A DNA stretch of 64,000 nucleotides. Source: Agelas oroides. Taxonomy: Eukaryota; Porifera; Demospongiae; Agelasida; Agelasidae. The stretch lies in contig OX422183.1 of assembly GCA_949130485.1 (NCBI GenBank), forward strand, positions 4,166,136 to 4,230,135, written 5' to 3'. The notes beneath the pieces are model-generated. The model made no database searches. It was not told the DNA's origin and saw only the letters and a program-made list of their open reading frames with translations. Positions 2,696-50,934 of the stretch are shown here, piece after piece. A program made the position numbers and the translations under genes. The number at the start of each line of letters is the position of its first letter. The stretch's first letter is position 1.

Positions 2696-3137
2696 TATAG
2701 AACTAGATTTGTCTATAGCTATAGCCACATGAAGCATCTCATCTGATGACAGTAGACTATAAACTAGAGTGTTCTAGACCATGCATGCCAAGCATTGCAC
2801 ATTGAGAACATTGTTTACTGGTACTGATAGTAGTGCACACCTCATGCACAAATGCCAAGTGTAAGATTCAAGTGCAAAGTTAATGTGAAATGATACTGAT
2901 GACTGATAAATACAATCTGAAACTGAAACTGATACACATACTGGTACACATCCAATTCATATTCCCAGGTCCTTTAATAACATGATAGCTAGCCACTGTT
3001 CAAGATGGTGTCATGCACACATTCACATAATGGACAAGCTGATTTATCAAGACTGCCCACTTAGCATGTATAGAAAATGTGGGAAGTAAAACCAGGCCTT
3101 TTTCTGAAATACCCAGGAATGAGGCCAGTATTTAGAC
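2696..3137. other. Spacer between ankyrin ORF and GTPase exon
   Basis: No coding segment is seen. The frame of the downstream GTPase exon is closed by TGA at 3120-3122. The stretch may be 3' UTR plus intergenic DNA, or an intron if the two ORFs belong to one gene. Confidence 0.5.
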
Positions 3138-5295: not shown

Positions 5296-5475
5296 GTGAG
5301 TAGGAAACTACATAAGCGTTAAAACTAGTTCCGGTGTGAATACTGACATAAAATTATTATAGACAAATGTGTGCTGCCGAGAGTTATTGTTAGTAGATCA
5401 GCACACTGCATGCACAAAATATCAAACACTGTTTTGTTTTGTTGTCTACTGCCAATATAGCCAACCATATTACAG

Positions 5476-12000: not shown

Positions 12001-14615
12001 CTGAATACTCGTATCTCAGGGTCTGCCTTGGATATGTCATCAACCCAGAGGAACCTGAGGACATCACGATCGTGGTCGTCAACGGAGATCATAAGGAATG
12101 CCTTTTCTATGTCAGCAGTCAACGCAATTCTGTATGACCGGAATCTCAGCAGCAGATCAAGAATCAGTTGATTGAACTTGGGCCCCTTGTGAAGGCAATC
12201 ATTCAGAGATGGACCAGTAGACCTCGCCGAGGCATCATATACCACGCGCAGCTTCGTGGTTGTCTTGTCTGTGCGCACCACGGCATGGTGGGGTAGGTAG
12301 TGTACCTTGCCGGCGGTTGGCTCAAGCGGATCCACGGTTTCTATGATGCCCTTCTCAAGCTGTTCTTTGATGGTGTGATCATACTGCTCTAAAAGAGTTG
12401 GTTCTTGCCTAAGTCTGCGCATCAGGCCGTGCAGTCGCTTGCGACTGAGCTGGTAATGATCTGGGAGTGCATCATGGAACTCCTTCCAAGGAAGGGTTAC
12501 TTGGTAGCGGCCTTGGTTAAAAGCAATGCCGCCAGCAAAGTCGTCGTAGAGTGTCTTCTCTACCTCTTGTATGCCAAGTGACTCTAATTCCCAGAAGGAT
12601 CTGAGCTGCTCCTCGAGACCTGCAGACTCTTGCTGCTGCGCATCGGCTCGGAGTACGTGTGTGGTCACTAGAGTTGCAGAACAACAAGAGCCACCTTCTG
12701 CCAGTGTGGGACCTGACAGCACCCAGCCCAACTTAGTGTGAATGGCTGAGGGCCCATGCTCACTTCTACACACATTCCCAGTGACAAGCTCCCAATAATA
12801 ATCACAGCCTATAAGCACATCCACCTGCAAGGTTGATTTCCCGTCTGAATAGTCTGCAAATTCTAAATCTATAAAGGAATCGGATCTCTCAATGCAAGTG
12901 GCAATAGGCTGGCTCACTAGAGGGTCACATATGGTGGGAACAACATACAGAGACAAGGACATTGGTGAATAGCCCCCCGAACACATTCCAACATTCACAA
13001 TCTCACATACCCTTCTCTGTCCCTCGCTCGATCCAAATGTGGCAATCACGAGTAGCTGTTCACCAGTCGGCTCCAACTGCAGCAGTTTCTTAGCTCGCTC
13101 CGTGATGTACGATCTCTGACTGCCACTGTCGAAGAGCAGTCGAACTTCGATCGAGATATGTGGCTCCGAGAGATTGTGTATGATTGTACAGGCTGTCTGT
13201 AGTAGCACAGCTTCCCTCTTGTCTGAACAGAGTGCGGTAGTATTCGTAGTCGGAACCTGCTGGTATGAGGGGGCAGCTGGATTCAGCCCTGGTTTTGGGT
13301 TGGCTGGCTCGGGTGGCCTTTGAGTCTGTTCAGCGGTTTTCTCACATATGGAGGTGTGATGACGTCCACTGCACTTTTGGCACCTGCTCGATGACCGACA
13401 AGTACGTCCAACGTGGCCCTTGCGCAGACAGTTGAAGCAGCGACCGCTCGATCTCAAGATCTGCTTACGGGCAGTGGCATTGCTCACAGTAATGCAGTCT
13501 GCTGAAGTGTGAGGTTGTTGGCAGTAACAGCAAATTGGGCCACTTCCTGCTTCCTGTGCTTTTGTCAACAGTGCTGAGGACTGTTGTCGGGCTTGGCTTC
13601 TGCGAGGTGGAGCGTGAGATGTTCTTGAACTGGAAGCCCTCTCCCTTGCTACTAGTTCTTCCTCAAACGTTTCCAATAGATTGTCCATGTTTAGGTCGGT
13701 GGATGAGATCCTTCTACTGACAATGAGGCGTAACTCCGGTGGTAGTTTCATCAGCAGCACTGGAGAGAGCATAGCTCCATATGATGTTGGTTCAACACCA
13801 AGGGACTTCAAGCTGCGGAGGTGTGACTCAGTTTTGTCATACAGGTGTCTCAGTTCCTTGAGACTCTGATCGGATGTCACAGGCTCGGCATTCAGTAAGG
13901 TCTCCATGTGCTTGGAGATGATGAGAGGCTTGTTGCCAAACCTCTTCTGTAGGATCTCGACTGCTTCCTGATAGTTAGCAGCAGATAAGGTGAGTCCAGC
14001 TACCGCGTCTAGGGCTGTGCGTTCTAGTAAGGACCTCAGATAGTTGAACTTGTCAACTTCTGTCAGTTCATCATTGTTGTGGATGGCCGACTCGTAGGAG
14101 TCCCAAAATGTTGGCCACTTCATCAGGTCACCATTGAAACGTGGCAGTGAGAGTTTGGGCAACCTAACCTTAGCTCCATGTGGACGCGGTTCAGCTCGAT
14201 CTCCAGGTGCATCTGCAGCTCGATCGACAACGGCAGGAGTGTCAGTGGGCGCAGTGGGTGATGTAACTGTTGGCCCAATAGTCGGAGCAGTAGTTACAGG
14301 AGCTTCAGGGGTGGTGACAGGAGTCAGTCTACGATTGATCAGTACAAGAGCTTCAAAGATATTCTCCTGGCACTCATCAGCTTGCTTGATCTCAGTATCC
14401 AGCTCTTCGTCGGGGACGAGTACTACAATCTCATCGTCAAGCTCCTTCAGTGTCTTCTGCTTCGCTTCGAGTGTCAGCTTCAGCATAGAGAGTCTTTCTA
14501 CGTTAGGCGGCGTAGCTCCCAAGGCAGTAGTGATCTGTCCTTGGATCCTCGTGGCTGATGCTCTATGACCAGCACGAACTCTCTTCTTACGTTGTAGTGC
14601 TTCGGCTTCGGCCAT
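9054..14615 (-). CDS. BEL/Pao Gag-Pol polyprotein
   Basis: One ORF, open from 14753, which is inside the LTR. The likely start is the ATG at 14615-14613 (MAEAEALQRKKRVRAG), 77 bp past the LTR, as usual for the family. Residue numbers here count from the codon at 14753. In order: a DUF1759-type Gag region (about 197-350, LPKLSLPRFNGD); CCHC knuckles (about 408-472, CFNCLRKGHVGRTC); an aspartic protease (LLFDSGSQ, about 539); reverse transcriptase with YVDD (about 957); RNase H (GFCDAST, about 1157); integrase with an HHCC region, the SDNG Asp (about 1600) and a WWGGAFERL Glu; and a DUF5641-type tail (SVGDVVIVHSE). No stop or frameshift is present, so the copy could be competent. Apparent ORFs on the opposite strand are shadows. 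Confidence 0.95.
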   Translation of the reverse strand: MAEAEALQRKKRVRAGHRASATRIQGQITTALGATPPNVERLSMLKLTLEAKQKTLKELDDEIVVLVPDEELDTEIKQADECQENIFEALVLINRRLTPVTTPEAPVTTAPTIGPTVTSPTAPTDTPAVVDRAADAPGDRAEPRPHGAKVRLPKLSLPRFNGDLMKWPTFWDSYESAIHNNDELTEVDKFNYLRSLLERTALDAVAGLTLSAANYQEAVEILQKRFGNKPLIISKHMETLLNAEPVTSDQSLKELRHLYDKTESHLRSLKSLGVEPTSYGAMLSPVLLMKLPPELRLIVSRRISSTDLNMDNLLETFEEELVARERASSSRTSHAPPRRSQARQQSSALLTKAQEAGSGPICCYCQQPHTSADCITVSNATARKQILRSSGRCFNCLRKGHVGRTCRSSSRCQKCSGRHHTSICEKTAEQTQRPPEPANPKPGLNPAAPSYQQVPTTNTTALCSDKREAVLLQTACTIIHNLSEPHISIEVRLLFDSGSQRSYITERAKKLLQLEPTGEQLLVIATFGSSEGQRRVCEIVNVGMCSGGYSPMSLSLYVVPTICDPLVSQPIATCIERSDSFIDLEFADYSDGKSTLQVDVLIGCDYYWELVTGNVCRSEHGPSAIHTKLGWVLSGPTLAEGGSCCSATLVTTHVLRADAQQQESAGLEEQLRSFWELESLGIQEVEKTLYDDFAGGIAFNQGRYQVTLPWKEFHDALPDHYQLSRKRLHGLMRRLRQEPTLLEQYDHTIKEQLEKGIIETVDPLEPTAGKVHYLPHHAVVRTDKTTTKLRVVYDASARSTGPSLNDCLHKGPKFNQLILDLLLRFRSYRIALTADIEKAFLMISVDDHDRDVLRFLWVDDISKADPEIRVFRFTRVVFGVSSSPFLLNATIKYHLERFLGTNEAVVRCLFNSTYVDDIVTGADTDEAAFELYTQSKDIFRRGGFNLRKFVSNSQELQQRIDCAEGVTHSFHELEESFAQGTLGTTPNTSIGEYKILGVSWNPTSDHLIFNLTELARLASSLQPTKRNVVSLIGRFYDPLGFLAPVTIRFKVLFQKLCRDKLEWDESLPEELIGEWNRLVSDLGEGGPISIPRSYFHLTSAPATSVTLCGFCDASTHAYAAVVYLVTKTDVNTSVQFVVSKTRVAPLQTQTIPRLELLSALLLSRLVVSVSNSLQSTLSQLKVQCYADSQIALYWICGTNREWKPFVRNRVNEIRRNVHPSLWSHCPGISNPADLPSRGLTTLELTVNQLWRQGPEWLYADVPWVEPEPCTSMPGECAVELKVTPLPSLNLVTADSRGSISDLMSCDRFSTLSKLLRVTAYVVRAIKGFKGKREDVSPGLTSEELAHVEMLWIRSAQQHLVSQPDFKVQQKQFNLFVDDKKIWRCGGRLTNVEAPFTVKYPVLLPRNHPLTTLVVREAHERVHHNGVKETLTETRRKFWIPKGRSLVRYLIHHCVLCRRFEGAPFKGPPPPPLPVFRVKEDPPFSYSGVDFAGPLTIRADKATHSKKVWICLFTCLVTRAVHLDVVIDMSTHSFLRCLKRFAARRGLPRKFVSDNGKTFKAASKYIKAVFEDHTVKEHLAGMRCEWTFNVERAPWWGGAFERLIQSTKRCLRKLIARAHFSFDELLTTITEIEAVLNSRPLSYVSGEDIDELLTPSHLLVGRRILSLPDHIGYLCDLDDEEFTTDSVQLTRRVRHLNNTLNHFWNRWRTEYLNELREAHKRSMSKTQYKKPADLSVGDVVIVHSERLPRGLWKLGRIQELLKGRDGHCRAAIVKTAASNGQPVLLRRPIQLLYPLELSDSSEPSTEKRSSGAEPPAGTESSIEQAGTKLRRSKRAAAQRGDERRKACMFELDDD

Positions 14616-14674
14616 GGTGGGCGTTAATAGGAGAGTGTATAGCTTATAGGCGATCAAAACTTCCGAATCAGCGA

Positions 14675-14691
14675 TCCGGCTCGAAGGACCA
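14675..14691 (-). other. Primer-binding site, tRNA-Tyr
   Basis: Directly next to the 5' LTR. The minus strand begins TGGTCCTTCGAGCCGGA. It is complementary over 17 bases to the 3' end of animal tRNA-Tyr (TCCGGCTCGAAGGA plus CCA, known tRNA sequence). Confidence 0.75.
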
Positions 14692-14898
14692 TGTAAAATC
14701 TCACAAGTATCACTCCATCTATCTGTTGTAGCTTCCGCACTATCCTTTTGCACTCGATTCGACCAGATTCAGTGAGACACATGCACACGCTTCTTTCATT
14801 GGAAAATTTTCAACATGAGTCTGATCACGTGATTACAATAACCAATAATAAGAGAGTAATACTAGAATTCATGACAAGTACAAAGTTGCTTCAGCACA
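14692..14898 (-). repeat. 5' LTR of the BEL/Pao element
   Basis: 207 bp, identical by eye to 8752-8958. On the minus strand it precedes the primer-binding site and gag. Confidence 0.93.
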
Positions 14899-28221: not shown

Positions 28222-29773
28222 CTTTTAGCTACCTGAAATGCTGTTTACTCCCTGCATGCGTTTAAGGAAAAGCTTCATGTTTGGCAAGCTACCTCTTAAT
28301 TGGCCCATTGACAATGCATGCAGGGAGGATTTAAGTAGGAATTTTACACTGCATGGCAGCATTTTAAAATTCTAATTTTGCTTGTTCTAAACAGGGCATG
28401 TGTGCAGTCATCCCACCCTGTTGCCAAGAGCTTCCTTGTCAACACTATCAATGACAAGTGTGCCAACTGTTGCAGAAAGTAGCTTTAAGCTATAATTAGA
28501 CATTACATGTGTATAAGTACAGACAGTGATGCTTTTAAATAATGTCCCTTTACCCTTTGTTGTGCCCACATGCGCCCAAAGTTTTAAAGTATACATGTAC
28601 AGCTACAGTGGTAGTAAAGAGCCAGAAGCTAATTAACTTGGAAGTGCATACAGGCACTCTCTTTAAACGTTTGTGATAGATACACTTAAGCAGGTTTGTT
28701 TTCAACCAAGTTAATACGAATGTCTGAACTCAGCTAGTTTATAAGTTTCTCTCGTGAGCATGTGATTGATTTCTGATCATGCATGCGCATAAGAGGTAAA
28801 GGGTAAAGGGTATGTCATGTGCTGTATCCATACATCGTAGATAATTTATGTACATACTATGTGATTATTTTACCATCTGGTTGTTTTGCATGTGAAGTAT
28901 ACTGATCGATACACCTATGTTTACAAGCATGTAGCAAGGTTGTACCAACCCTGCAGGAATCACCTGCTTATTTACAACCTTGTGACTACCTTGTTACAAC
29001 CTTGTTACAACCTTGTTACAACCTTGAAACCAGCTAGCGGGCGTGACAAATCCAGGGTTTGGACAACCTTCTGGCAAGGTTGTCACAACCTTGTCACAAC
29101 CTTGTACCAACCATGCGACAACCTTGTTCCAACCTTGCCACTACCTTGTAGCCAGGTTGTTACAAGGTTGGTACAAGCTGGCTGTACTACCTTGTGACAA
29201 GGTTGTCACAACCTAGTTTTTTCTATATGGGTAGGTAAGTTGTTACGAAGCATACAGTACCGCTTTGCGGGGAACGCTTACTTGTTGATAGTTGCGTGTA
29301 GCGTCTTTGGCTTTTCTCATTGACAGCAAGGCGCAATACCAGAGCTGCTTTGATATGTATAAAGCCTAAGGTCCACTGCACCTTCGTAGGTAGCGTTGTG
29401 TCTCTGCTTACAGGCGTTGAGAAGAAAACGTGGCTAATAAGTGACTTTTGCGATCGCCAACCATCATGGCTTCTGGCATTCTGATTCAGAATCACTACGC
29501 TCTGCCCCTTGAGGGCTTCTAGACCAATCCGCACATATTACTAGGGGAGGACCAGATATCAAAGCTGTTGCTAATAGCCTACGGCTGTGATAACACTCAA
29601 CTGCAGCTGTGACACGTATACGCGTTACCGCATGTAGTGCATTGTTCCTTGGTGACGCGTATACGCGTCTATTGCGTATAATCGGTTAAAGTGTAGGTGG
29701 ATCGCTTGTACAGGATATGGTAGTGCACTAATGTGCAGTGGATTCAAGAACACCATGAAATCAAGAGAGTTAC

Positions 29774-30556
29774 TAGCCTCGTACCCAGGCTCTTTGTAGG
29801 CGGGGAGGGAAAGAGCCTGGTATCTACTGTTCGCGCATGCGTGTAATTATCCCCTGCTGAACACATGTTCAGGCAATAGTGGGAGGGGAACGCGTAATAC
29901 TTATCCATGTGATTTATAGTGTGACGTACAATCATAATTTAGCAAGTACTAGTATAGTAACGTGTTGCGAAGAGCAAAACAACTACACTACAACGAATAG
30001 CGATTTTTGAAAATTTCGTTGAAATAGTTTTGTGAATTTGCTGCACGCGCACACTGCACGCCACGTGTCAAAAATGTTCGTTGAAATATTTTCGCATACG
30101 GTTGAAAATTCGCGAAATTCACGAAATTAAAGACCCACGAAAATTTAGTGCTATATGGTACACTACAACCAGCGTTACACCGCCCTGAAATTCTTGCTAA
30201 CAGTCTATAACACTTCGTATCACACAGACTTACCAGGCAGTGAGCCGTTAGTCGCGTATTTCCCCAAGCAAATGTCCAAACTGGAAGCTACCTGTACTTT
30301 CATATCAGAAGTACCTAGCTGTTGGAGGTAGCTGGAGGCCGCAGGAGTACGAACGATTGAAAGACTTTCATTGTTGGTCAGAAAATGTGCGGATGATGTA
30401 GCGGTAAGTATACGTTCTGACGTCACGGTTGTACGGATATAACACGATAGTTTCCGATTTCCCAAGATTTCTGGGAAATTAAGCGCATGCGCAAACAGTG
30501 GAGTGGATACCAGGCTCTCTTTCTCCCCGCCCACCGAGAGCCTGGATATGAGGCTA
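29774..30556. mobile_element. 783-bp MITE, 9-bp target duplication
   Basis: The ends TAGCCTCGTACCCAGGCTCT and AGAGCCTGGATATGAGGCTA are inverse; about 70 bp of termini match. GAGAGTTAC is duplicated at 29765-29773 and 30557-30565. The paralogous repeat at 54830-54850 has one related site (GGGAGCTGC) and no insertion. No transposase inside. Confidence 0.9.
29995..30160. repeat. Nested GAAAATTTCG-type MITE
   Basis: TTTTGAAAATTTCGTTGAAA on the left and CCCACGAAAATTTAGTGCTA plus TATGGTA on the right resemble the ends of the element at 58433-58830. Confidence 0.45.
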
Positions 30557-30714
30557 GAGAGTTACCTCATCTGCATCTCAGGGTGAGTGTAATTGAGTCT
30601 TACTCCTGGAGGATGAAATGGTTCTAGTCCTAAAACTGTTCAATTTCAACCAGTGCAACACTTGTGCAGTAAATTGGTTGTACTTAGACCCGTTTCAGCA
30701 TCAGTGCGCTTGTG

Positions 30715-31510
30715 TTCTAAAACCCCGCCCAAAGCACCCAACGAAGCTGCATGTTTGGGCAGGCATCAGTAAGAAGGGAAGAATCTCAATTGCCATATTT
30801 GACGCTATCATACCGTACATTAAAATACTGGAACACAGCTTGATACCATTCATCCACAGTACCTACCCAGACTCACACAGACTGATACCATTCATCCACA
30901 ATACCTACCCAGACTCACACAGACTGATATCATTCGTCCACAGTACCTACCCAGACTCACACAGACTGATACCATTCATCCACAATACCTACCCAGACTC
31001 ACACAGACTGATACCATTCATCCACAATACCTACCCAGACTCACACAGCTTGATACCATTCATCCACAATACCTACCCAGACTCACACAGACTGATACCA
31101 TTCATCCACAATACCTACCCAGACTCACACAGACTGATACCATTCATCCACAATACCTACCCAGACTAACACAGACTGATACCATTCATCCACAATACCT
31201 ACCCGGACTCACACAGACTGATGCAAGATAATGACCCCAAGCACACCTCTAAGAAAGTAGCTGAGTTTTTCACACAGTCAGGAATCAACTGGTGGAAAAC
31301 ACCACCTGAATCCCCAGACCTAAACCCTATTGAGAATTTTATGGCATGAACTGAAGGAGTACATTAGGCGTGAGGTCAAACCAAGCAACGAATCTGAGCT
31401 GGAATCTGGGATCATAAGGTTCTGGAGAACTGTACATGTCCACAAATGTTGCAAATACATTAATCATCTTTGAAAGGTAATTCCTCGTGTAATTGACCTT
31501 AAGAGAAGCA
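30715..31510 (+). pseudogene. Tc1-type transposase remnant with internal amplification
   Basis: It aligns by eye with the C-terminal half of the intact transposase at 38150: RPKHPTKLHVWAGIS, then QDNDPKHTS, GINWWKTPPESPDLNPIE, and a tail near 31450-31500. The first catalytic Asp region and N-terminal helix-turn-helix are missing. A stop lies at 31167-31169 and a frame break near 31338. Between VW and the second catalytic Asp, one 14-residue segment (LIPFIHNTYPDSHR) is repeated nine times. Confidence 0.85.
30837..31214 (+). repeat. 42-bp tandem repeat, nine copies, inside the transposase remnant
   Basis: Nine units of exactly 42 bp (AGACTGATACCATTCATCCA plus 22 bp), with few differences. 42 is a multiple of three, so the frame was kept. 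Confidence 0.95.
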
Positions 31511-33240: not shown

Positions 33241-33874
33241 CACTTTGCACGCGGAAATTATATACACGTCACCGTTTATTAACGCGGAAATTAAAATTAT
33301 CTGTCTGAGGTCAAAGTGACAAGCGTTGCTTAGCAAGCCCTGGGCCTTGCCAGCGGCCTGATTTGCATAGGTGGCATGTAACAAGGCTGGACTAGTTCAT
33401 CTAAATTGCTGATCACCGCTAGGTAAGCGATTTGTACCTGTTTGAAGCCATTATCTGTAGGTGTATATCGTAGCTTACCAGCAATTTGAAACGGTGCCGA
33501 TGTTCTCATTTGTTACGTACAGCTCCGACGGACTAAGCCCTTTTCCAAGTTATTTGAAGCTATTACTGCAGCCTTATGTGAAATCTGGAAGCCGCTTGCT
33601 CCATATGTTGAAGAAAAAGCTTCGCTTTGACGGCCCTTCTTAAAATTCACGAACGATCACGAACTAGCACCGCCCCTTCCGCCTTTCCTGCGAGGTGATC
33701 TAAGTGGAAAGGTGTGGTCTACACTTATTACTACTCAACAGGAAGGGATTTACCCCAAAAGCTCGCTTGGCTTCGCTACTTACCGCGTAAACTCTCCCGC
33801 GCCAATATATTGGCGCATCGCGCTACGCGTGTACAGCCCGTGCGCCAATATATTGGCGCTTCGCGTTCTAAGTG
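33241..33874. mobile_element. 634-bp piggyBac-like non-autonomous element (TTAA)
   Basis: It is bounded by TTAA at 33237-33240 and 33875-33878. The termini CACTTTGCACGCG and CGCGTTCTAAGTG are inverted. The right end carries two copies of the palindrome GCGCCAATATATTGGCGC. Removing the element plus one TTAA rejoins the LINE frame. Confidence 0.75.
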
Positions 33875-33945
33875 TTAAGGTCAATAAGGCAACAGGTCCT
33901 GATGGGTTGAGCAATGAATTACTAAAGCTGGCAGCACCGGCAATG
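33875..33945 (+). pseudogene. LINE reverse-transcriptase fragment, part 2
   Basis: KVNKATGPDGLSNELLKLA is the conserved start of non-LTR reverse transcriptase (K-x-x-GPDG). It is cut again by the foldback at 33941. Confidence 0.75.
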
Positions 33946-34074
33946 ACCCCTTTTACCATAAGATCGAATTTTCGCATGATATTCGCTGTATTGCGATATT
34001 CGGCACGACAGCGCGCTGTGCGATGGTTAAAATCTAGCGAAATTTACATTGAAACCTATGTAAAAGGGGCATTG
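33941..34074. repeat. 134-bp foldback with CCCCTTTTAC ends
   Basis: CAATGACCCCTTTTACCATA on the left and TATGTAAAAGGGGCATTG on the right are inverse with one extra base. The LINE frame does not visibly resume afterwards. Confidence 0.65.
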
Positions 34075-34264
34075 GGCGCGGCCTAAATGTACTCCGGATG
34101 CAGCGTGCAGGCAATTGCATTCCACAGCACGTAAAACGAAAAGGTCTATTGCCACTATCTATAATTATAACTCGATTATGTGTTTAGTACTGTTTACGTG
34201 CAACATTTGTGTCTTGTGTAACTCTTCTTTGTTAAGTTTTTCTGTTTGCTTGTAGCTATGGTTT

Positions 34265-35299: not shown

Positions 35300-36208
35300 T
35301 CTACTCTTTTTGCATCTACTACTAGTTTCGTCTGCTACTAGTTTCGTCTGCTACTAGTTTCGTCTGCTACTAGTTTCGTCTGCTACTAGTTTCGTCTACT
35401 ACTAGTTTCGTCTACTCCTTTTTCGTCTACTACTAGTTTCGTCTACTCCTTTTTCGTCTACTACTAGTTTCGTCTACTACTAGTTTCGTCTACTACTAGT
35501 TTCGTCTACTCCTTTTTCGTCTACTACTAGTTTCGTCTACTACTAGTTTCGTCTACTACTAGTTTCGTCTACTCCTTTTTCGTCTACTACTAGTTTCGTC
35601 TACTCCTTTTTCGTCTACTACTAGAACGTTTTCGTCTACTACTAGTTTTGTCTACTACTAGTTTCGTCCACTCCTTTTTCGTCTACTACTAGAACATTTT
35701 CGTCTACTACTAGTTTCGTCTACTACTAGTTTCGTCTACTCCTTTTTCGTCTACTACTAGAACGTTTTCGTCTACTGCTAGAACGTTTTCGTCTACTGCT
35801 AGTTTCGTCTACTACTAGTTTTGTCTACTAGTTTCGTCTACTACTAGTTTCGTCTACTGCTAGTTTCGTCTACTACTAGTTTCGTCTACTCCTTTTTCAT
35901 CTACTACTAGAACGTTTTCGTCTACTACTAGTTTCGTCTACTACTAGTTTCGTCTACTCCTTTTTCGTCTACTACTAGAACATTTTCGTCTACTACTAGT
36001 TTCGTCTACTACTAGTTTCGTCTACTCCTTTTTCGTCTACTACTAGAACATTTTCGTCTACTACTAGTTTCGTCTACTAGTTTCGTCTACTGCTAGTTTC
36101 GTCTACTACTAGTTTCGTCTACTCCTTTTTCGTCTACTACTAGAACGTTTTCGTCTACTACTAGTTTCGTCTACTACTAGTTTCGTCTACTCCTTTTTCG
36201 TCTACTCC
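35300..36208 (+). repeat. 16-bp minisatellite array (TTTCGTCTACTACTAG), about 0.9 kb
   Basis: Tens of TTTCGTCTACTACTAG units, alternating with TTTTTCGTCTACTCC and ACTAGAACGTTTTCGTC variants. No stable ORF. Higher-order blocks recur, e.g. ACTCCTTTTTCGTCTACTAC then TAGAACGTTTTCG. Confidence 0.95.
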
Positions 36209-36218
36209 TGCTATTGTA

Positions 36219-36951
36219 CAGTACAGGTCACAGGTAAGGTAACAAATTCGCACGTGTAGTGAGGGATTTACCCGCGTGTGACGAGTAATCAACACGCGTG
36301 TGATGTGGCGGGTACTCGCAGTAGACTCGCGTGTGCAGCGACTCGCGGGTGTTGGTGCAACAGCCAAGTAATACACTGTACAAAGAAATACTGGGAGACA
36401 AACACTACTACGGGAAGGTATGAACATGCAAGACAGTTTTTCAGTGTTGCTATGCCGTTCTATCCGTCCTGTCTTGTTCCTCCTGCTGTTACTCTTCGTC
36501 TTCGCCCTTCGGTCTCGCCCTCCCCAGCTGTTTACCCTTCGCCTTCGCTGTTCGGTTCACTCCTCTCGTCGCTCACTCTACGTCTTCGCTCTCCTAACTC
36601 GCTGTTTCCGCTGTTAGTCTTCGTTTTCGCTACCCAGTCTCGCTCCTCCCGTCGTTTACTCTACGTCTTCGCTCTCCTGACTCGCTATTTCAGCTGCTAG
36701 CCTTCGTCTTCGCTAGCAAGTCTCGCGCCTCCCGCTCTTACTGTTCGTCGTGTTTTCTCCCTACTCTTTTCAACCGGCCTCTAGCTCTCCTTCGTCGTCG
36801 TTACTTGCTTTCCCAGTCCGCACACGTGCACTCGCGCGGGGCGAGTGCGAGGGCGGAGACTCGCGTGGGTGGAGCGAGTACTCGCATGTGCGCGCCTACG
36901 AACTCGCGAGTCACACGCTCGCGCGTGTTACCTTACCTGTGACCTGTACTG
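36219..36951. mobile_element. 733-bp non-autonomous relative of the BEN transposon
   Basis: It starts CAGTACAGGTCACAGGTAAG and ends in the inverse, next to TA on both sides (36217-36218, 36952-36953). The termini match those of 37705-41490 with one to three differences in about 26 bp. Inside the ends are many ACTCGCG/CGCGAGT words and one full CTCGCGAG (36903-36910). The core is a CTTCGTCTTCGC-rich degenerate repeat. No ORF of note. Confidence 0.85.
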
Positions 36952-37055
36952 TATGTCAGTATTTGTATGTTAGTAGGATCAGTTGTACAAAAAAAATTAA
37001 GTGAAACTAAAAACCAACCCACTTATAGCACTAAATATTCAACTAAGGTATAGTC

Positions 37056-37702: not shown

Positions 37703-37704
37703 TA
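37703..37704. repeat. TA target site, left end of BEN transposon
   Basis: TA directly outside the terminal CAGTACGG; the matching TA is at 41491-41492. Confidence 0.7.
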
Positions 37705-37739
37705 CAGTACGGATCACAGCTAAGGTAACACGCGCGAGC

Positions 37740-37945
37740 GTGTGACTCGCGAGTTAGTAGGCGTGTACACGCGAGTACTTACCGCGCCCTCGCGTCTTCA
37801 CTCGCGAGGGACTAACCCCGCACTCGCGAGTAACTCGCGAGTCCCCGCCCGAGTCCCCGCCTGTTTTAGTACACGCGAGTGCACGTGATAAAGCACGAGT
37901 TCTGACTTGGAGTGTGAGAGATATCATATTGTGTGACCTTCGCGA
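37740..37945. promoter_or_regulatory. Left subterminal CTCGCGAG cluster
   Basis: Full palindromes CTCGCGAG at 37746-37753, 37801-37808, 37823-37830 and 37834-37841, plus half or variant sites (ACGCGAGT near 37768 and 37871, TCGCGAGTG near 37938). The cluster lies between the inverted repeat and the transposase start, so it may be both transposon-end binding site and promoter. Confidence 0.6.
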
Positions 37946-38149
37946 GTGTGACGGTGGAAAAGAAGTCGGATACTGAACAACGAGAGAGAGCTAGAGGTAA
38001 CCGTGAGAGAGTGGAGAAGAAATTGAAAATTTGGAGTGGAAAAAGCAAGACGGAAGCGTTTAACAGCTGGAGGGTTGACGTACATGTACCGTGGAGACGA
38101 ACGAGTTTCAAGGCAAGCTAGCGAGCAACAGGACTATAAATAGGATAAC

Positions 38150-39166
38150 ATGGGACGCATGAGTGCAGATACTAGAGCGAGAGTAGTGTGTTTGTGCAGG
38201 GCTGGATTTTCTGTTGTGAAAATAAGAGAGAGACTGCTCGAAGAAGGGATCGTGGTTTCAAGAAAGTCGCTGTACTTGCTACTAAAAAAGTACAATGAGA
38301 CTAACTCCATAGCTGACCAAAAGAGAGCACCAAGAAGGAGGCAATTGAGCAATGAGCACTTCCAGTTCATTGATGAAGCTATGGAAGCAGACCGTGAGCG
38401 AACATCTCGACAGCTCCATGGCCTGGTAGTTGAGAAATATCCTGACCTAACTGTCTCGATTAGTACTATAAAAAGAGCACGTCGGGCACTTGGCTGGAAT
38501 TCGAAAAAGACAAGATACTGTGCACTTATCAGTGAGATAAACAAAGAAAAAAGGATGACGTGGTGCTTAGATCGTATTGCCGAAGGTGATCTAGAACTAT
38601 CTGATGTTATTTGGACGGATGAATGTTCTATTCAACTTGAATCTCACCGCAAGATCATTTATCAGAAACAAGGTCAACCAATCCGGCTAGCTGGAAGACC
38701 TAAACACCCCCCGAAGATTCATGTTTGGGGGGGAATATCCGCAAGGGGTGCTACTCCAATTGTCATATTTACTGGAATACTGATAGCAACTAGGTATACT
38801 AGAATACTTGATGCTGCTCTATTGCCATTCATCCAACAGCACTATCCAGATAAACACCGATTCCAACAGGACAATGACCCCAAGCATACAAGTCGGTGGG
38901 CACAGACATATTTCGAACAACAAGGGATTAACTGGTGGCACACTCCTGCCTCCAGTCCAGATCTCAACCCCATTGAACTCATTTGGGGATCCCTGAAACA
39001 GTATTTGCGTACTCATGTCAAGCCAAAGAACATCGAACAATTAAAAGTAGGAGTTCAAGAATTTTGGCTAACTCTTACCCCAGCTGTTTGCCAAAAGTAC
39101 ATCAGTCATCTGAAGAAAGTTATTCCCAAAGTAATTGAAGAAGATGGTGGGCCATCTGGCTACTAG
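38150..39166 (+). CDS. Tc1/mariner transposase, intact
   Basis: 338 residues, typical for Tc1 transposases. N-terminal paired-like helix-turn-helix motifs (about residues 5-50 and 60-118) bind the inverted repeats, with a basic stretch (RAPRRRQ) between them. The catalytic triad is visible: IWTDECS (first Asp, about 162), QQDNDPKHTS (second Asp, about 242) and SPDLNPIELIW (Glu). The spacing from the first Asp of DND to Glu is 34 residues, so DD34E. VWGGIS and WWHTP are further family marks. There is no stop or shift. The start ATG at 38150 is chosen because it precedes the first helix. The product cuts and pastes the element at TA. Confidence 0.95.
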   Translation: MGRMSADTRARVVCLCRAGFSVVKIRERLLEEGIVVSRKSLYLLLKKYNETNSIADQKRAPRRRQLSNEHFQFIDEAMEADRERTSRQLHGLVVEKYPDLTVSISTIKRARRALGWNSKKTRYCALISEINKEKRMTWCLDRIAEGDLELSDVIWTDECSIQLESHRKIIYQKQGQPIRLAGRPKHPPKIHVWGGISARGATPIVIFTGILIATRYTRILDAALLPFIQQHYPDKHRFQQDNDPKHTSRWAQTYFEQQGINWWHTPASSPDLNPIELIWGSLKQYLRTHVKPKNIEQLKVGVQEFWLTLTPAVCQKYISHLKKVIPKVIEEDGGPSGY

Positions 39167-39329
39167 GAAAGTACTGTAATTGTATAATGCATTGTTTTGT
39201 GAGTCATTTTGCATGTGAAATCATTAGTTGTCAGCAGGATATTTTATTCGAGGGGTGGGGCCATGCAGGACGTTTGCACGTGCATTGCTTGCACGTGCTC
39301 TTTACTGACCTATGAACCCTCCGCGTGGG

Positions 39330-39336
39330 TATAAAA
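39330..39336 (+). promoter_or_regulatory. TATA box of the BEN gene
   Basis: TATAAAA, 107 bp upstream of the ATG at 39443. It is preceded by CACGTG E-boxes (about 39278-39298). Confidence 0.6.
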
Positions 39337-39442
39337 TCAAGTTACTGCTGCTATGTTTCTACACAAGCTCGCATTCGAACTACGAACTAGAGACTCCGCA
39401 GCTCTCCGAATCCGAAACTCCGAACAGTCGACCCACCGCACA

Positions 39443-41152
39443 ATGGCAACTGAAAGGCGGGCTATCCTTGAGACCGTAGGTCCGAGTCATTATGTTGTCC
39501 ATTTCGATGAAGACGATTGCATAGCCCGAATACCCAGGAAGTCAATGGTGAGGCCCTCCATGCCCAGTGTTGGTGACACGTGCAGTGTTGAGTGGAGTGA
39601 TGGTGTGGAGTATACTGCTACAGTTTTAGCCATGGGTAAGAGCTTGTTTTGTCGCTAAATAAGCTACTTCAGTGTGTTCATATTTTTGTCAGCATTTGAA
39701 AGATGCGAGAGTCTGTTTTTGCACCAATTCACCATTATTTTTTTTACACATGTATATGTCAACAAACAGGTGATGCAGTGGCGGCAAAGAAGGCAGAGCA
39801 AGAGCTTTTTCGAAAACAAGTAAAAGAAAATCAGGAACCAACACCAAAAAGGAGAAAGGAAAACCTGGCTACCAAAACTCCATGCCGCAAATCTAATGCT
39901 ACTAAGAAGCGGAAAGCACTGCGAACCATCCAAACATCAAAACAGGCGTCTAGCACACCCGACTTTGAGCTGGGGCCTCCAGCCCCTGGCTTATCACCAT
40001 CTTCGTGCACAAAAGCTGTCTCTTCGCCAATACAAAAGAAGCAACCAGATTTAGAGATCTCCTTATCTGGGTTCTCGACCGATGACTCCACACAAAGTGA
40101 GACTATTCTGTCTCACAAAACACCTGAGAAGGTTAGTTACTTATTATGTACAGTATGCATTTTATTGAGATACGAAGATACATGCAACTTATGATTCCTA
40201 CTGTTACTACTAATAGCATACACTTTCTTCCATTTTATTTCTTAGATGATGACTATCTGTATAGATGATTACAGTGCTGGTGTTAGCCTTCCATCACCAA
40301 ATTCCTTTGGCTTGCATACAGATCAGGTACATGTACGTACATACATGTATGTGTATACAGCAAATACAATATTATTAATGTGCAAGATTTTCTAATACAA
40401 ACATGTAATTATTTCTATTGCTTCATTTTCCACACTTCTTCTCATAGTGCATTCATCACCAGGAGATCCTTCACAAGCTGGATGCCTTGACGTCTGCTGT
40501 GAAAGCAATTGATGGGCGACTACTATCTGTACTGTCAAGGATTGCCGAGTTTGGACACTCCCAGATTCCAACACCTGCTCTCACCGCCCCAGCTCAATCC
40601 CAGGCCACAACACTTGACCCCATCATCTCAGCCCAACCCAAGACCCCAACACCTGCCCCCATCCCCTCACCTCAGCCCCAGACCCCCACACCTGCCCCCA
40701 TCCCCCCAGCTCAATTCCAGACCCCAACACCTGCCCCCATTCCCCCAGCTCAATTCCAGACCCCAACACCTGCCCCCATTCCCCCAGCACAATCCCAGAC
40801 CCCAACACCTGCCCCCATTGCTCAGCAAACATCATCAGCACCAGTAGCTGTTGCTTCCCAGGAATATCTAAGTGTCGACGAGATCCTGAGAATGAAACAT
40901 GGCAGCTCTTCTCGGATGAACTTTGCAGCGAATATCAACCGTAGGATATTTTCATTCACAGAGAGGTCAATGTGCAACGTCAGGGGGAAACTTGGCAAAG
41001 GAATGTTAGATGCAGAGAAGATGGAGTATATCAAACTCGTTGCCTTCAGGATGTTCCCGTTAGAGAGCAAAGAAACTGTCAAGACTGCATGGAATGCATG
41101 TATAACTGCCATCGATGAAGTGAACAGGAGATTGAATAAGAATAAGAAGTAA
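39443..41152 (+). CDS. BEN-domain DNA-binding protein encoded by the transposon (4 exons)
   Basis: Exons 39443-39635, 39770-40131, 40246-40326 and 40448-41152 give 1341 nt, i.e. 446 residues and TAA. All introns are GT-AG (GTAAGA, GTTAGT, GTACAT donors) and the phases agree. Residues 1-65 have a Tudor/SH3-like pattern (GDTCSVEWSDGVEYTATVL). Exon 2 is basic and Ser/Pro-rich (PKRRKEN), likely nuclear. Residues about 217-247 form a heptad-like helix (QEILHKLDALTSAVKAIDGR). About 250-345 is a Pro-rich repeat (TPTPAPIPPAQFQ). About 358-440 is a BEN domain (NFAANINRRIFSF, GKGMLDAEKM, TAWNACITAIDEVNRRL). BEN domains bind DNA. Coiled coil plus BEN is also the layout of BANP. The role in the element is inferred. 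The ORF is also open upstream of 39443 to 39353. Confidence 0.8.
40620..40815 (+). repeat. 39-bp coding repeat in the BEN gene
   Basis: ACCCCAACACCTGCCCCCAT plus CCCCCAGCTCAATTCCAG, about five copies, giving the Pro-rich PTPAPIPPAQFQT units. Confidence 0.9.
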
Positions 41153-41279
41153 ACTTGTATGTAGCTCAGCCTTTAGTACTCATTGTTTATAATATCTACT
41201 TTACCGCTGCTACACTGCTCTTGTTCATTATGTTTTTGCTTACTTTACACATTGGCTACGCCTACTTTTCCACTACACG

Positions 41280-41465
41280 TACACTTAGCACTCGCGCGCG
41301 CCCTAGGGCCCAGCCACCGCGCGCGCGACTAGACTCGCGCGCTGTAAATACTCGCGTGTACCTGCACTCGCGGGTCCTCGCACCTTGCGAGCGAGTTTTT
41401 TTCGCCAACTCGCGTGTTAACTACCCGCCACACGCGAGTAAACTCCGCGCAACACGCGAGTATTT
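41280..41465. promoter_or_regulatory. Right subterminal ACTCGCG/CGCGAGT cluster
   Basis: At least seven ACTCGCG, CACGCGAGT or GACTCGCGCG words within 190 bp, next to the right inverted repeat. No full CTCGCGAG palindrome is seen on this side. Confidence 0.55.
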
Positions 41466-41490
41466 GTTACCTTACCTGTGATCTGTACTG

Positions 41491-41940
41491 TAGTCCTGTA
41501 AGTTTCTGTTGATAAGTTTCAATTATTCAATTCAACCAACAACATTACACATTAACATGTCTGTCTCAACAATATGACACTTAAAAAGCTTGAGATGAAA
41601 TACAGCATCTTCTCCGTCAATAACTCAACAATATATGGCAACTCGACCTAAAAATTCTTATTAGTCGAGGATGCATTGTCCATGTAAATATGCAACTTTC
41701 TTATCCATGGTGGTACTTTTCCACTCTTGCAAAAGTAGTCGGTGATTAGGGCCTATACGTTCATCAAATATGTAGATGGCAGCTTGATCATCAGAATGAT
41801 TGTGTATCCCAAAATGTCATGAAAAGAGAGAACTAGTGCCATGAATGTGAGTAAACTGGTAAAATAGAGACATTTAACACCATAGGTGCATGGGTGCACC
41901 TCAGACAGAGCTACTTAGATATTGAGACAAAGGAATCTAC
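41491..41940. other. Intergenic, nothing firm
   Basis: AT-rich sequence to the right of the BEN transposon. No gene or repeat is recognised. Confidence 0.5.
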
Positions 41941-42070: not shown

Positions 42071-42165
42071 CTACTAAAGGCCCATGTAAAAGGGAAAAAC
42101 GGGAAGGCCTGGTCTTATTCATCACACAAGTAACACTAGGTGGACGTGTGGGGGGGAGGGGGGCA

Positions 42166-42820
42166 CATATGTGACCCACTGAGCGAAAACCCGGCACATC
42201 GCGCATTTTATGAAAATCGAGATGAGACCGGAAATCGGTATACCAATGTGTAATTGTGTGGCAGAAAAAAAATGGAAGCGATCGGTTGCTTGGTTCCCGA
42301 GCTACAGAGCGAAATGCGTAGCGGATGCGGAACGCAACTTTTCGAGAAAACGCAATGTTTTTATGTTGCTACGGTAAATTTCAATATCTCCGTATACTAT
42401 CGTGTCACGTAAATTTACACGTGTTCTTGTTAAAAAGCAGCTTGAAAGTCGGCAAAGACAGTTGGGAAAGACAGCGGTTGTGAAAGCGGGGGCTTACATT
42501 GTGTCTATGGACAGAAAGACAACCGTATACGGACTGGAAGCTGGTAAAATCGCGTTTTTTGAAAAACGCGTACAAGCTGTCCATAGCAACGCGTTCCCGT
42601 ATTTCACGGGCCTGCCTGTGAGTTCGAGCTTATATCGTCGATGTAGTAGCAGAGCCGGCCTTCATAATTCAGCATCATACAGTGCAAGCCCCCTGTGACA
42701 CGTTGGTGCAATAATCTGAGTTTAGCTGGGAAACGAGCTGCATGTACGGATAAAATTGCCTCTAACTCAAATTCAATATTTGCGCGAAGTGCCGGGTTTT
42801 CCCTCAGCGGGTCACATATT
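42166..42820. repeat. Foldback element, about 40-bp inverted ends
   Basis: ATATGTGACCCACTGAGCGA plus AAACCCGGCACATCGCGC on the left is inverted at 42782-42818 (GCGCGAAGTGCCGGGTTTTC plus CCTCAGCGGGTCACATAT). A 98-residue frame at 42402-42698 (VLVKKQLESRQRQLGKTAVV) has no recognised family. Confidence 0.75.
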
Positions 42821-46498: not shown

Positions 46499-46746
46499 TC
46501 AAGGCTAGCAGTTGGGGATTTGGCGATGTAATTACTGAAATAGTTCTGTACCTCATTCTGGTTTCAACGTGTGGACATTAGAGCCAGTGTGCATTGCTAC
46601 TAATCCACTAGCTGTTACAGAGTACTCCAGCACAGTGGCAAGTTTGTATGCTAAATCAATGACTGTCGCAGCATCAAATCTCAATTAAATACTAGCATCT
46701 AGCGACTCACCAACAGCAAATCTGGAGGAGTAATCCAAAGCGAGAC

Positions 46747-47726
46747 GGCAGTCGCAGGAGAACCCCAACGGGAGGCGGCAGTGGCAGGAGAACCCCAATG
46801 GGGGGTGGCAGTGTCAGGAGAACCCCAATGGGGGGTGGCAGTGTCAGGAGAACCCCAACGGGGGGTGGCAGTGTCAGGAGAACCCCAACGGGGGGTGGCA
46901 GTGTCAGGAGAACCCCAACGGGGGGTGGCAGTGGCAGGAGAACCCCAATGGGAGGTGGCAGTGGCAAGAGAACCCCAGTGGGGGGTGGCAGTGGCAGGAG
47001 AACCCCAATGGGGGGTGGCAGTGTCAGGAGAACCCCAACGGGGGGTGGCAGTGTCAGGAGAACCCCAACGGGGGGTGGCAGTGTCAGGAGAACCCCAACG
47101 GGGGGTGGCAGTGGCAGGAGAACCCCAACGGGGGGTGGCAGTGGCAGGAGAACCCCAACGGGGGGTGGCAGTGGCAGGAGAACCCCAATGGGAGGTGGCA
47201 GTGGCAAGAGAACCCCAATGGGGGGTGGCAGTGGCAGGAGAACCCCAATGGGGGGTGGCAGTGTCAGGAGAACCCCAACGGGAGGCGGCAGTGGCAGGAG
47301 AACCCCAATGGGGGGTGTCAGTGGCAGGAGAACCCCAATGGGGGGTGGCAAGTGGCAGGAGAACCCTAATGGGGGGTGGCAGTGGCAGGAGAACCCCAAT
47401 GGGGGGTGGCAGTGGCAGGAGAACCCCAATGGGGGGTGGCAGTGGCAGGAGAACCCCAATGGGGGGTGGCAGTGGCAGGAGAACCCTAATGGGGGTGGCA
47501 GTGGCAGGAGAACCCCAATGGGGGGTGGCAGTGTCAGGAGAACCCCAATGGGGGGTGGCAGTGGCTGGAGAACCCCAACGGGGGGTGGCAGTGTCAGGAG
47601 AACCCCAACGGGGGGTGGCAGTGGCAGGAGAACCCCAATGGGAGGCGGCAGTGGCAGGAGAACCCCAATGGGGGGCGGCAGTGGCAGGAGAACCCCAATG
47701 GGGGGTGGCAGTGTCAGGAGAACTTC
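46747..47726 (+). repeat. 30-bp minisatellite A, about 32 copies
   Basis: GGCAGTGGCAGGAGAACCCC plus AATGGGGGGT with G/T and C/T variants. A 1-bp insertion near 47350 and a deletion near 47493 shift the register. Long open frames on both strands (up to 345 codons) arise from the stop-free 30-bp unit. The left flank (ACTAGCATCTAGCGACTCAC, CAACAGCAAATCTG) is shared with 50010-50050. Confidence 0.97.
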
Positions 47727-48006
47727 TGCTGTTCAAAGAGTTAACATACAGCAGTCAGTAATTGGTGTTACAACACAAATCCATAAATTTTGCAACCTGG
47801 CTATTTGCATGCAATGACACATAAGCATAATTTACTTCCCTGAGCAATCTGATTGGTGCAACAACATGCTGATATGCTTTATAATTAGGCCCCAGTTTTC
47901 CCAGTGAGGGTGTGTTTTTTGATCAGGCCACAGGACGTGTGAAAAAATTGGTCTGGGGTCGAGATTATATAGCACTACTAAAACATACCAAACCTTTCCT
48001 TACTTA

Positions 48007-49220: not shown

Positions 49221-50009
49221 CTCATCGTTTACCACGAAGCTAAGAAGCTTAGCTAAACTCAGGGTAGGCCCCTTTATATTTGCTACTAATGAGCCTAGAG
49301 CAGACCTTTTGGCTGACATCATCACTCTTGAAAGGCAGGAAGAGGTGGTGCTAGTTCGGAGTGGTTGCATGTCAGACACGAAGTTAAATACAGTGAGCAA
49401 ACAGCTTCCAGTTTTCACTTGAGGTAGGACTTGTACCTTCAAATAACTTAGAAACCGGCTTATAAGTCAGAGCTGTAAGTGTCTAGGGATAGAATTACAA
49501 TGGCCTATATTTGTATTTACGGATTGAACATTATAACAATGACACTAGAAATATGTTGGGACCACGAGTGACTCAGATGGTAGTGGTTTTGTGTCATCTT
49601 TTATCTTTCATTCAAAATTCAGCTAAAGGGTTGCGTTCAGTGGCCATGCAGCCCTTTTACCTGTTTGTTGAAAAATGTCTAGTATATACGTTTTTTTAAG
49701 TACTGATTTGAATAAACAACATATTAATTTGCTAAGTACATTGCTTCACAGGGCTGCAGTTACTAGGTTGCCAGGGGCCCTTAAGTTGGTTGGTAGTTGG
49801 CCAACCACGTAAACTTCATCCAGGTTGTAAGAGACCCCTGCTACTGTGGATTGTAAAAGAGCCACAATGTGGTGATTTCTTACCTAATTTTGGATAAAAG
49901 AGTTCAAATCCACTTAAGTTGGTTGGTAGTTGGCCAACCACGTACACGACTCCTGCTACTATATATTGTGGATGCTAAATCAGTGACTGTCACAGCATCA
50001 AATCTCAAT
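49221..50009. other. Intergenic; copies of local repeats
   Basis: AAGTTGGTTGGTAGTTGGCC occurs twice (49794, 49916). ATGTGGTGATTTCTTACCTA is shared with 50943 and 57977. A 90-residue minus-strand frame (49442-49170) has no family match. Confidence 0.5.
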
Positions 50010-50050
50010 TAAATACTAGCATCTAGCGACTCACCAACAGCAAATCTGCA

Positions 50051-50740
50051 GTGAGTAATCCAAAGGGAGGCGGCAGTGGCCGAAGTACTCCAAAGGGAGG
50101 CGGCAGTGACAGGAGAACCCCAATGGGATGCGACAGTGGCATGAGAACCCCGACAGGAAGCGGCATTGGCCGGCGAACCCCAGCGGGAGGTGGCAGTGGG
50201 AGGAGAACCCCAATGGGAGGTGGCAGTGGCATGAGAACGGGAGGCGGCATTGGCCGGCGAACCCCGACGGGAGGCGGCATTGGCCGGCGAACCCCAACGG
50301 GAGGTGGCAGTGGGAGGAGAACCCCAATGGGAGGTGGCAGTGGCATGAGAACGGGAGGCGGCATTGGCTGGCGAACCCCGACGGGAGGCGGCATTGGCCG
50401 GCGAACCCCGACGGGAGGCGGCATTGGCCGGCGAACCCCAACAGGAGGTGGCGGTGGGAGGAGAACCCCAATGGGAGGTGGCAGTGGCATGAGAACGGGA
50501 GGCGGCATTGGCCGGCGAACCCCGACGGGAGGCGGCATTGGCCGGCGAACCCCAATGGGAAGGTGGCAGTGGGAGGAGAACCCCAATGGGAGGTGGCAGT
50601 GGCATGAGAATGGGAGGCGGCATTGGCCGGCGAACCCCGACGGGAGGCGGCATTGGCCGGCGAACCCCAACGGGAGGTGGCAGTGGGAGGAGAACCCCAA
50701 TGGGAGGTGGCAGTGGCCGAAGTACTCCAAAGGGAGGGCT
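50051..50740 (+). repeat. 30-bp minisatellite B, related to A
   Basis: GGAGGCGGCATTGGCCGGCG plus AACCCCGACG, mixed with GGAGGTGGCAGTGGGAGGAG plus AACCCCAATG and a 20-bp short form. Flanks and wording are shared with the array at 46747. Open frames on both strands are by-products. Confidence 0.97.
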
Positions 50741-50934
50741 GCCACTTTCCACGCAGTGACAGGAGAAACTTCATCCAGGTTGTAAGAGACTCATATATTG
50801 TGGATTGTAACAGAACGGGCATACTTATTGTAAACAGCAAACATAGACTCACAATTCAGTCCTCTACTTACCGTGGTTGCACTTTACTCTCTCCATATTC
50901 AGACCATATTTTTCGAGTCCTTCCGCAGCAGAGA

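Follow-up and report, generated by a model that had tools for sequence, protein, structure and literature searches.

We find that a 64,000-nucleotide stretch of the genome of the demosponge Agelas oroides (GenBank assembly GCA_949130485.1, contig OX422183.1, positions 4,166,136 to 4,230,135 of the forward strand; hereafter “the window”) contains a transposon that, judged from its sequence, is a two-gene Tc1-like element and apparently intact. Between its terminal inverted repeats (TIRs) the element carries a DD34E transposase gene and a predicted spliced gene whose product ends in what the evidence supports as a divergent BEN domain, and both ends are packed with copies of a 10-bp palindrome, ACWCGCGWGT. 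These features lend circumstantial support to a proposal made in an earlier, sequence-only reading of the same DNA, namely that the element carries a sequence-specific factor of its own that recognizes its termini. We propose more specifically that the element-encoded BEN protein binds these ends and maintains them in an active, unmethylated state, a statement that, taken as a whole, we hold at somewhat less than an even chance.

The transposase and the ends are those of an ordinary Tc1 element. The element is flanked by TA on both sides and framed by near-identical TIRs with the terminal sequence TACAGTACRGRTCACAGSTAAGGTAACA (Table 1), so that the inverted repeats described in the sequence-only reading do enclose both genes. 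The transposase is encoded by an intact open reading frame (ORF), also as that reading had it, with Pfam matches to DDE_3 (E 6.6e-19) and HTH_32 (E 3.4e-9), similarity to Sleeping Beauty (SB100X; E 5.4e-23), and the catalytic residues D157, D241, and E276. It thus shows the DD34E/D spacing and the helix-turn-helix (HTH) domain by which Tc1/mariner transposases are recognized. The element shares with Sleeping Beauty and its kin the DD34E transposase, the HTH domain, the TA duplication, and the TIRs, but differs from them in its spliced second gene and in the palindrome arrays inside its ends. A lone transposase gene is typical of Tc1/mariner elements without defining them; here, a second, four-exon gene model lies between the same ends, and the element measures 3.8 kb compared to the usual ~1.3-2 kb. 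The sequence-only reading had called a two-gene Tc1 element noteworthy. Such an element is indeed atypical for Tc1, but the mere presence of a second gene is not without precedent, since the ciliate Tec/TBE elements, Tc1/mariner relatives that likewise pair a DD34E transposase with further ORFs, are multi-gene (PMC7325037). The additional ORFs of Tec include a site-specific recombinase, and the part of that source describing them names no BEN domain (PMC7325037).

The second gene is predicted to comprise four exons that join into a single 1341-nt frame encoding 446 amino acids, with GT-AG boundaries at all three introns, in agreement with the spliced gene proposed earlier. The heptad helix that the sequence-only reading had placed ahead of the BEN domain is also recognizable: at the start of exon 4, ILHKLDALTSAVKAIDGRLLSVLSRI can be read directly as a clean series of hydrophobic positions spaced 4-3-4-3-4-3-4. 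A proline-rich repeat lies between this helix and the BEN domain. The 276-bp spacer separating the transposase and BEN genes contains a TATAAAA box, a candidate promoter element for the latter, with a hairpin just ahead of it (Table 1); TGCACGTG or its complement occurs elsewhere at 37880 in the left end, at 36823 in a neighboring short relative of the element (see below), at 39577 in BEN exon 1, and at three sites outside both elements. At the N-terminus of the BEN protein, a Tudor-like domain is at best possible: Pfam SMN_Tudor (E 0.056) falls below its cut-off, the best phmmer match in the Protein Data Bank (PDB) has an E-value of 1.4, and a Foldseek search with the N-terminal model is led by PH and Tudor folds at E 0.28 and above, which we count as no evidence.

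Identification of the C-terminus as a BEN domain rests on its similarity to human BEND3. In a phmmer search of 177,635 PDB sequences, the fourth BEN domain of human BEND3 (BEN4) ranked first (E 4e-4), with the match covering residues 12-105 of the 106-residue query. When BEND3 BEN4 was used in turn to search the 1264 six-frame ORFs of the window, exon 4 alone was reported (E 4.6e-5). The two domains align with a score of 22.8 bits, whereas 20,000 shuffles of the BEN region reached at most 12.0 bits; the region therefore resembles a solved BEN domain from end to end more closely than chance would produce, which makes it a BEN homolog in the wider sense. Moreover, adding the window sequence to the BEND3 query shifted the E-value for BANP from 0.12 to 0.042, a small change in the expected direction. 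Other results speak against the assignment. The sequence-only reading had named the Pfam BEN model as its check, with a score below threshold as grounds for rejecting the domain, and this is the outcome we obtained: PF10523 (cut-off 23.2 bits) found no match at E 10 in the whole protein or in three separate pieces of it, and the same model scores human BEND3 BEN4, our control, at 74.6 bits. Single-sequence AlphaFold models were poor (mean pLDDT 47 and 54), and Foldseek found no significant fold match for either; the BEN domain of NACC1 comes sixth and sixteenth in the list of 31 fold matches for the pLDDT-47 model (E 5.8 and 8.5). In our view, the direct match to BEND3 outweighs the silence of Pfam, and supports a divergent BEN domain. 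Divergent BEN-type domains in lineage-specific genes are also known from the DUF4806 proteins of zebrafish chromosome 4, a BEN subtype (PMC11075544), but the relevant part of that report draws no link to transposons, and the element’s protein matches no Pfam family, DUF4806 included, at E 10.

We next consider the ends of the element. The sequence-only reading had noted four exact CTCGCGAG palindromes in the left end and many ACTCGCG variants at both ends, and both observations hold: CTCGCGAG occurs five times in the window (37746, 37801, 37823, 37834, and 36903) against a shuffle mean of 0.23, a count that none of 100 shuffles reached, and RCTCGCG occurs 29 times against a mean of 3.54. The repeated unit is better written as ACWCGCGWGT, a fuller form of CTCGCGAG. 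All 12 exact copies of this unit in the 64 kb fall within two elements, nine at the ends of the transposon and three in its 737-bp relative; the comparison of ends with background that the earlier reading had suggested as a check thus shows an enrichment at the ends. Allowing up to one mismatch gives 11 copies in the element, six in the relative, and none in the rest of the window; up to two mismatches gives 17, nine, and eight, respectively. CGCG itself is found 102 times in the window, 63 of these outside both elements and with mixed flanking bases. In local dinucleotide shuffles of the left end, the right end, and the relative, none of 2000 replicates of each stretch reached the observed count, either with zero or with up to one mismatch, showing that local composition does not explain the arrays.

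The relative lies close to the element in inverted orientation and resembles a miniature inverted-repeat transposable element (MITE). It shares 77 bp at 91% identity and 85 bp at 82% identity with the ends of the transposon; the interiors of the two elements show no significant similarity to each other. Four of its open frames (81-145 amino acids) have no Pfam match at E 1. The relative contains three exact and three one-mismatch copies of ACWCGCGWGT, of which one exact copy (36325) and two one-mismatch copies (36341 and 36859) lie beyond the well-aligned ends. Motif copies both in and beyond the aligned parts are expected if the motif itself, and not descent alone, has been kept. A 16-bp minisatellite, which spans 36000-36206 within the scanned stretch, ends 10 bp ahead of the relative.

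Published work gives these palindromes a plausible reader. BEND3 binds the CGCG motif CCCACGCG and also TCTCGCGAGA, and BANP binds TCTCGCGAGA; in cells, both proteins are repelled by methylation (PMC11472053, PMC10206803, PMC10407929, PMC10602864). Full-length BANP rejects methylated DNA only when oligomerized, for example by its coiled coil (PMC11472053). The element’s protein resembles these vertebrate CpG-island binders in its BEN domain, which is nearest to BEND3 BEN4, in its BANP-like coiled coil, and in having CGCG-centered palindromes as putative targets. It differs from them in being encoded by a transposon, in escaping the Pfam BEN model, in its single C-terminal BEN domain, and in that its DNA binding is so far a prediction. 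Two independent lines, the BEND3-like domain and the confinement of the CGCG palindrome to the ends of the element and its relative within the window, underlie the view that the element carries its own factor; a coiled-coil BEN protein encoded between CGCG-packed ends is most simply read as the factor for those ends.

In the mechanism we propose, the second gene would encode a nuclear BEN-domain protein that oligomerizes through its coiled coil and binds the clustered ACWCGCGWGT sites at the two ends of the element, as well as those at the ends of its non-autonomous relatives. Once bound, the protein would keep the ends and the transposase promoter accessible and unmethylated at CpG, such that the transposase could be expressed and could use the ends. 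The BEN protein would thereby act as a self-encoded, sequence-specific anti-silencing factor. We infer each part of this function, from binding of ACWCGCGWGT to action on methylation and help in transposition. The distribution of sites is consistent with it, since they occur at both ends and not at the promoter alone, and also in a relative without a recognized gene. That distribution bears as well on a different possibility, in which the arrays act as an activating, CpG-island-like promoter signal by drawing in a BANP or BEND3-like factor of the host, and the BEN gene serves some other purpose. TCTCGCGAGA has been described as strongly activating and as a target of BANP (PMC10407929), and the left array does lie upstream of the transposase; however, the flanking bases differ (A..T in the element, T..A for BANP), the right end carries nearly as many sites despite lying downstream of both genes, and a BEN gene within an element bearing BEN-type sites would in that case be a coincidence. 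We consider host recruitment quite improbable.

The CpG content of the element speaks to the role such a factor might play. Over long stretches of the window, the CpG observed/expected ratio is 0.52-0.66, a depletion that would fit a methylated genome, and the direct flanks of the element are at 0.53 (left) and 0.45 (right). After masking of all motif copies with two or fewer mismatches, the ratio is 0.97 in the left end, 1.21 in the right end, 1.21 in the region ahead of the transposase, 1.03 in the spacer between the genes, and 1.25 in the interior of the relative. The coding parts are lower: 0.52 for the transposase and 0.59, 0.57, 0, and 0.30 for the four BEN exons (0.62 for exon 4 after the repeat). 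Among 1276 windows of 250 bp, the 12 that contain the most CpG are all located on the element or its relative. We rejected two simple accounts of this pattern: masking shows that high CpG at the ends is not due to the motif alone, and low values in the introns show that CpG is not kept in all non-coding parts. Low introns together with high ends and gene starts suggest instead that CpG is retained where regulation would take place. Of the three roles that the sequence-only reading had offered for the factor (transposition cofactor, regulator of transposase transcription, or a means of keeping CpG-rich ends open), this retention leans toward the last, but promoter function alone would also suffice. 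Indeed, the pattern fits methylation-protected ends and ordinary promoter-like, factor-bound DNA equally well.

The same data bear on the idea that the BEN protein binds the arrays mainly as a structural cofactor that joins the two ends or as a repressor of the transposase promoter, for which TnpA of maize En/Spm provides a model. Arrays at both ends and a coiled-coil oligomer able to bridge sites would suit this idea, and a repressive role is known for both BEND3 and BEND2 (PMC11472053, PMC10206803). High CpG at the ends and gene starts, on the other hand, is not predicted by a pure repressor, and typical Tc1 elements need no second protein, their superfamily being described as able to transpose autonomously (PMC5704228). 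We judge this cofactor or repressor role unlikely.

The BEN gene could also be an accidental passenger, derived from the host and trapped between the ends of this copy, with the arrays serving as inner transposase binding sites of the kind found in Sleeping Beauty-like Tc1 elements. Its three introns, compared to none in the transposase gene, would fit capture of a host gene, as would the single full copy that we see. Yet the BEN gene model is intact, tightly packed between the transposase and the right end, and equipped with its own TATA box, and we found no inverted-repeat pair in the element that frames the BEN gene by itself. Moreover, the TIR sequence has no further copies inside the element ends, and the palindromic array motif is unlike it. 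We regard a passenger origin, too, as quite improbable.

Several observations weigh against the proposal that the BEN protein keeps the ends unmethylated. The three introns, 369 bp with 4 CpG in total, have a joint ratio of 0.48, and the stretch of 127 bp 3' of the BEN gene reaches 0.74. Of the 79 windows with a ratio of at least 1 and a GC content of at least 0.45, 50 lie off both elements, with values that reach 1.51 around 33.8 kb. These two findings, low CpG in the introns and CpG-rich windows off the elements, lowered our confidence slightly. CpG-rich patches off both elements are found at 33451-34150 (up to 1.51) and 42101-42800 (up to 1.46). Between the ends of the element and those of its relative, 14 CpGs are kept, but 5 of 22 mismatches are changes of CG to TG/CA, so the ends may be subject to methylation. 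The isolated BEN domains of BANP and BEND6 are nearly insensitive to methylation (PMC11472053, PMC10206803), and methylation sensing is thus not a given. Site spacings of 11, 22, and 33 bp, considered as a sign of cooperative binding to one face of DNA, were rejected in a permutation test (P = 0.74). Finally, only one full copy of the element is present in the 64-kb window, our sole sample of the host, and viral (IMG/VR) and prokaryotic (GTDB) collections yielded no convincing relative.

We see a functional parallel to the VANC proteins of Arabidopsis VANDAL elements. VANC21 is encoded by a transposable element, binds a short motif dense in the non-coding parts of its own family, and removes methylation (PMC5735166, PMC10398659). 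The element shares with VANDAL a transposon-encoded accessory protein and a short motif that, within this one window, is dense in the non-coding parts of its own family and rare elsewhere; it differs in that anti-silencing is established for VANC and is our proposal for the BEN protein. VANC proteins belong to plant Mutator-like elements and are not known to be related to the BEN protein. Among plant elements, anti-silencing by a self-encoded, sequence-specific factor is documented, and we know of no animal DNA transposon shown to achieve it. Among the papers listed in our searches of open-licence literature, we found neither a BEN-encoding transposon nor one combining a BEN gene with BEN-type end sites, and an earlier description elsewhere may exist. 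In PMC5704228, the term BEN domain turns up once, among the references. A bolder form of our proposal is that this animal cut-and-paste transposon uses a BEN anti-silencing factor to read unmethylated CGCG palindromes and to protect both its own ends and those of its gene-less relatives, as an independently evolved counterpart of VANC. We think this wider claim doubtful. If it is true, it would inform the questions of how animal transposons evade CpG methylation and where CpG-island-binding BEN factors originated, as proteins of the BANP and BEND3 kind may share roots with transposon factors. It would also offer a compact, testable system that consists of a single protein and a single 10-bp motif, with the transposase as read-out.

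Table 1 Features of the two-gene transposon and its short relative (window coordinates).
Feature	Position	Strand	Basis
Whole element, ~3.8 kb	37705-41490	+	TA duplications at 37703-37704 and 41491-41492
Left TIR, 28 bp including TA	37703-37730	+	26/28 identical to right arm
Left ACWCGCGWGT array	37745-37880	.	Exact: 37745, 37767, 37822, 37833, 37871; one mismatch: 37800
DD34E Tc1-like transposase, 338 aa, intact, intronless	38150-39166	+	Pfam, catalytic residues, SB100X similarity
Hairpin, 9-bp stem with two CACGTG palindromes, just ahead of BEN gene TATA box	39276-39298		Sequence
Candidate TATAAAA box, ~107 bp ahead of BEN gene start codon	39330-39336	+	Sequence
BEN gene exon 1; possible Tudor/SH3-like domain	39443-39635	+	SMN_Tudor E 0.056, below cut-off; low-confidence beta model
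BEN gene exon 2; basic stretches resembling a nuclear localization signal	39770-40131	+	Stretches read by eye
BEN gene exon 3	40246-40326	+	Gene model
BEN gene exon 4, encoding the heptad helix, the proline-rich 13-aa repeat (39-bp unit), and the BEN domain, and ending with the stop codon	40448-41152	+	Gene model, similarity
Putative divergent BEN domain, closest to BEND3 BEN4	40865-41146	+	phmmer and shuffle test; Pfam silent
Right ACWCGCGWGT array	41350-41461	.	Exact: 41350, 41408, 41430, 41452; one mismatch: 41366
Right TIR, 28 bp including TA	41465-41492	-	26/28 identical to left arm
MITE-like non-autonomous relative, 737 bp, inverted relative to element	36217-36953	-	TA-flanked; arms 28/28 identical over 28 bp

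Our searches of IMG/VR viral contigs and GTDB genomes used as queries the transposase, the BEN domain, two transposase alignments, an alignment of BEND3 with the window sequence, and three TIR patterns. The TIR patterns matched 29, 31, and 1 stretches, and among the BLAST matches listed there was no second TIR or element end; the longest of those listed covers 27 columns at 89% identity in a Moorena contig (L038). The sole protein match (L001) was rejected, as it spans 22 residues only and the long frames of that locus look by eye like phage tail genes. At E 1e-3, neither the transposase nor the BEN protein had a match in any of the 61 collected loci. Eight plasmid records contain distant IS630-like matches, with at most 29% identity.

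Elsewhere in the window, a decayed Tc1 transposase of another family lies at 30717-31497 (66% identical over 53 amino acids), with about nine copies of a 42-bp unit inside its frame. We found no BEN-like frame in this copy, nor any nearby ACWCGCGWGT with one mismatch or none, but its damage is too extensive for it to count as a proper control. A BEL/Pao retrotransposon occupies 9054-14768 on the minus strand, with one 1904-codon frame matching Peptidase_A17, RVT_1, and Integrase_H2C2, and rve below the cut-off. Pieces of a gene for a ROCO-type protein are found at 3123-5322 (COR-A, plus Roc below the cut-off). Together with the spliced gene, the retrotransposon and the ROCO-type protein give the window a eukaryotic character, and the latter may fit a sponge. 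Two long minisatellites, at 46696-47817 and 50009-50855, look alike by eye and are open in several reading frames on both strands. Finally, a pair of 56-bp inverted repeats at 29773-30557, 84% complementary and 673 bp apart, perhaps marks a gene-less element of a different family.

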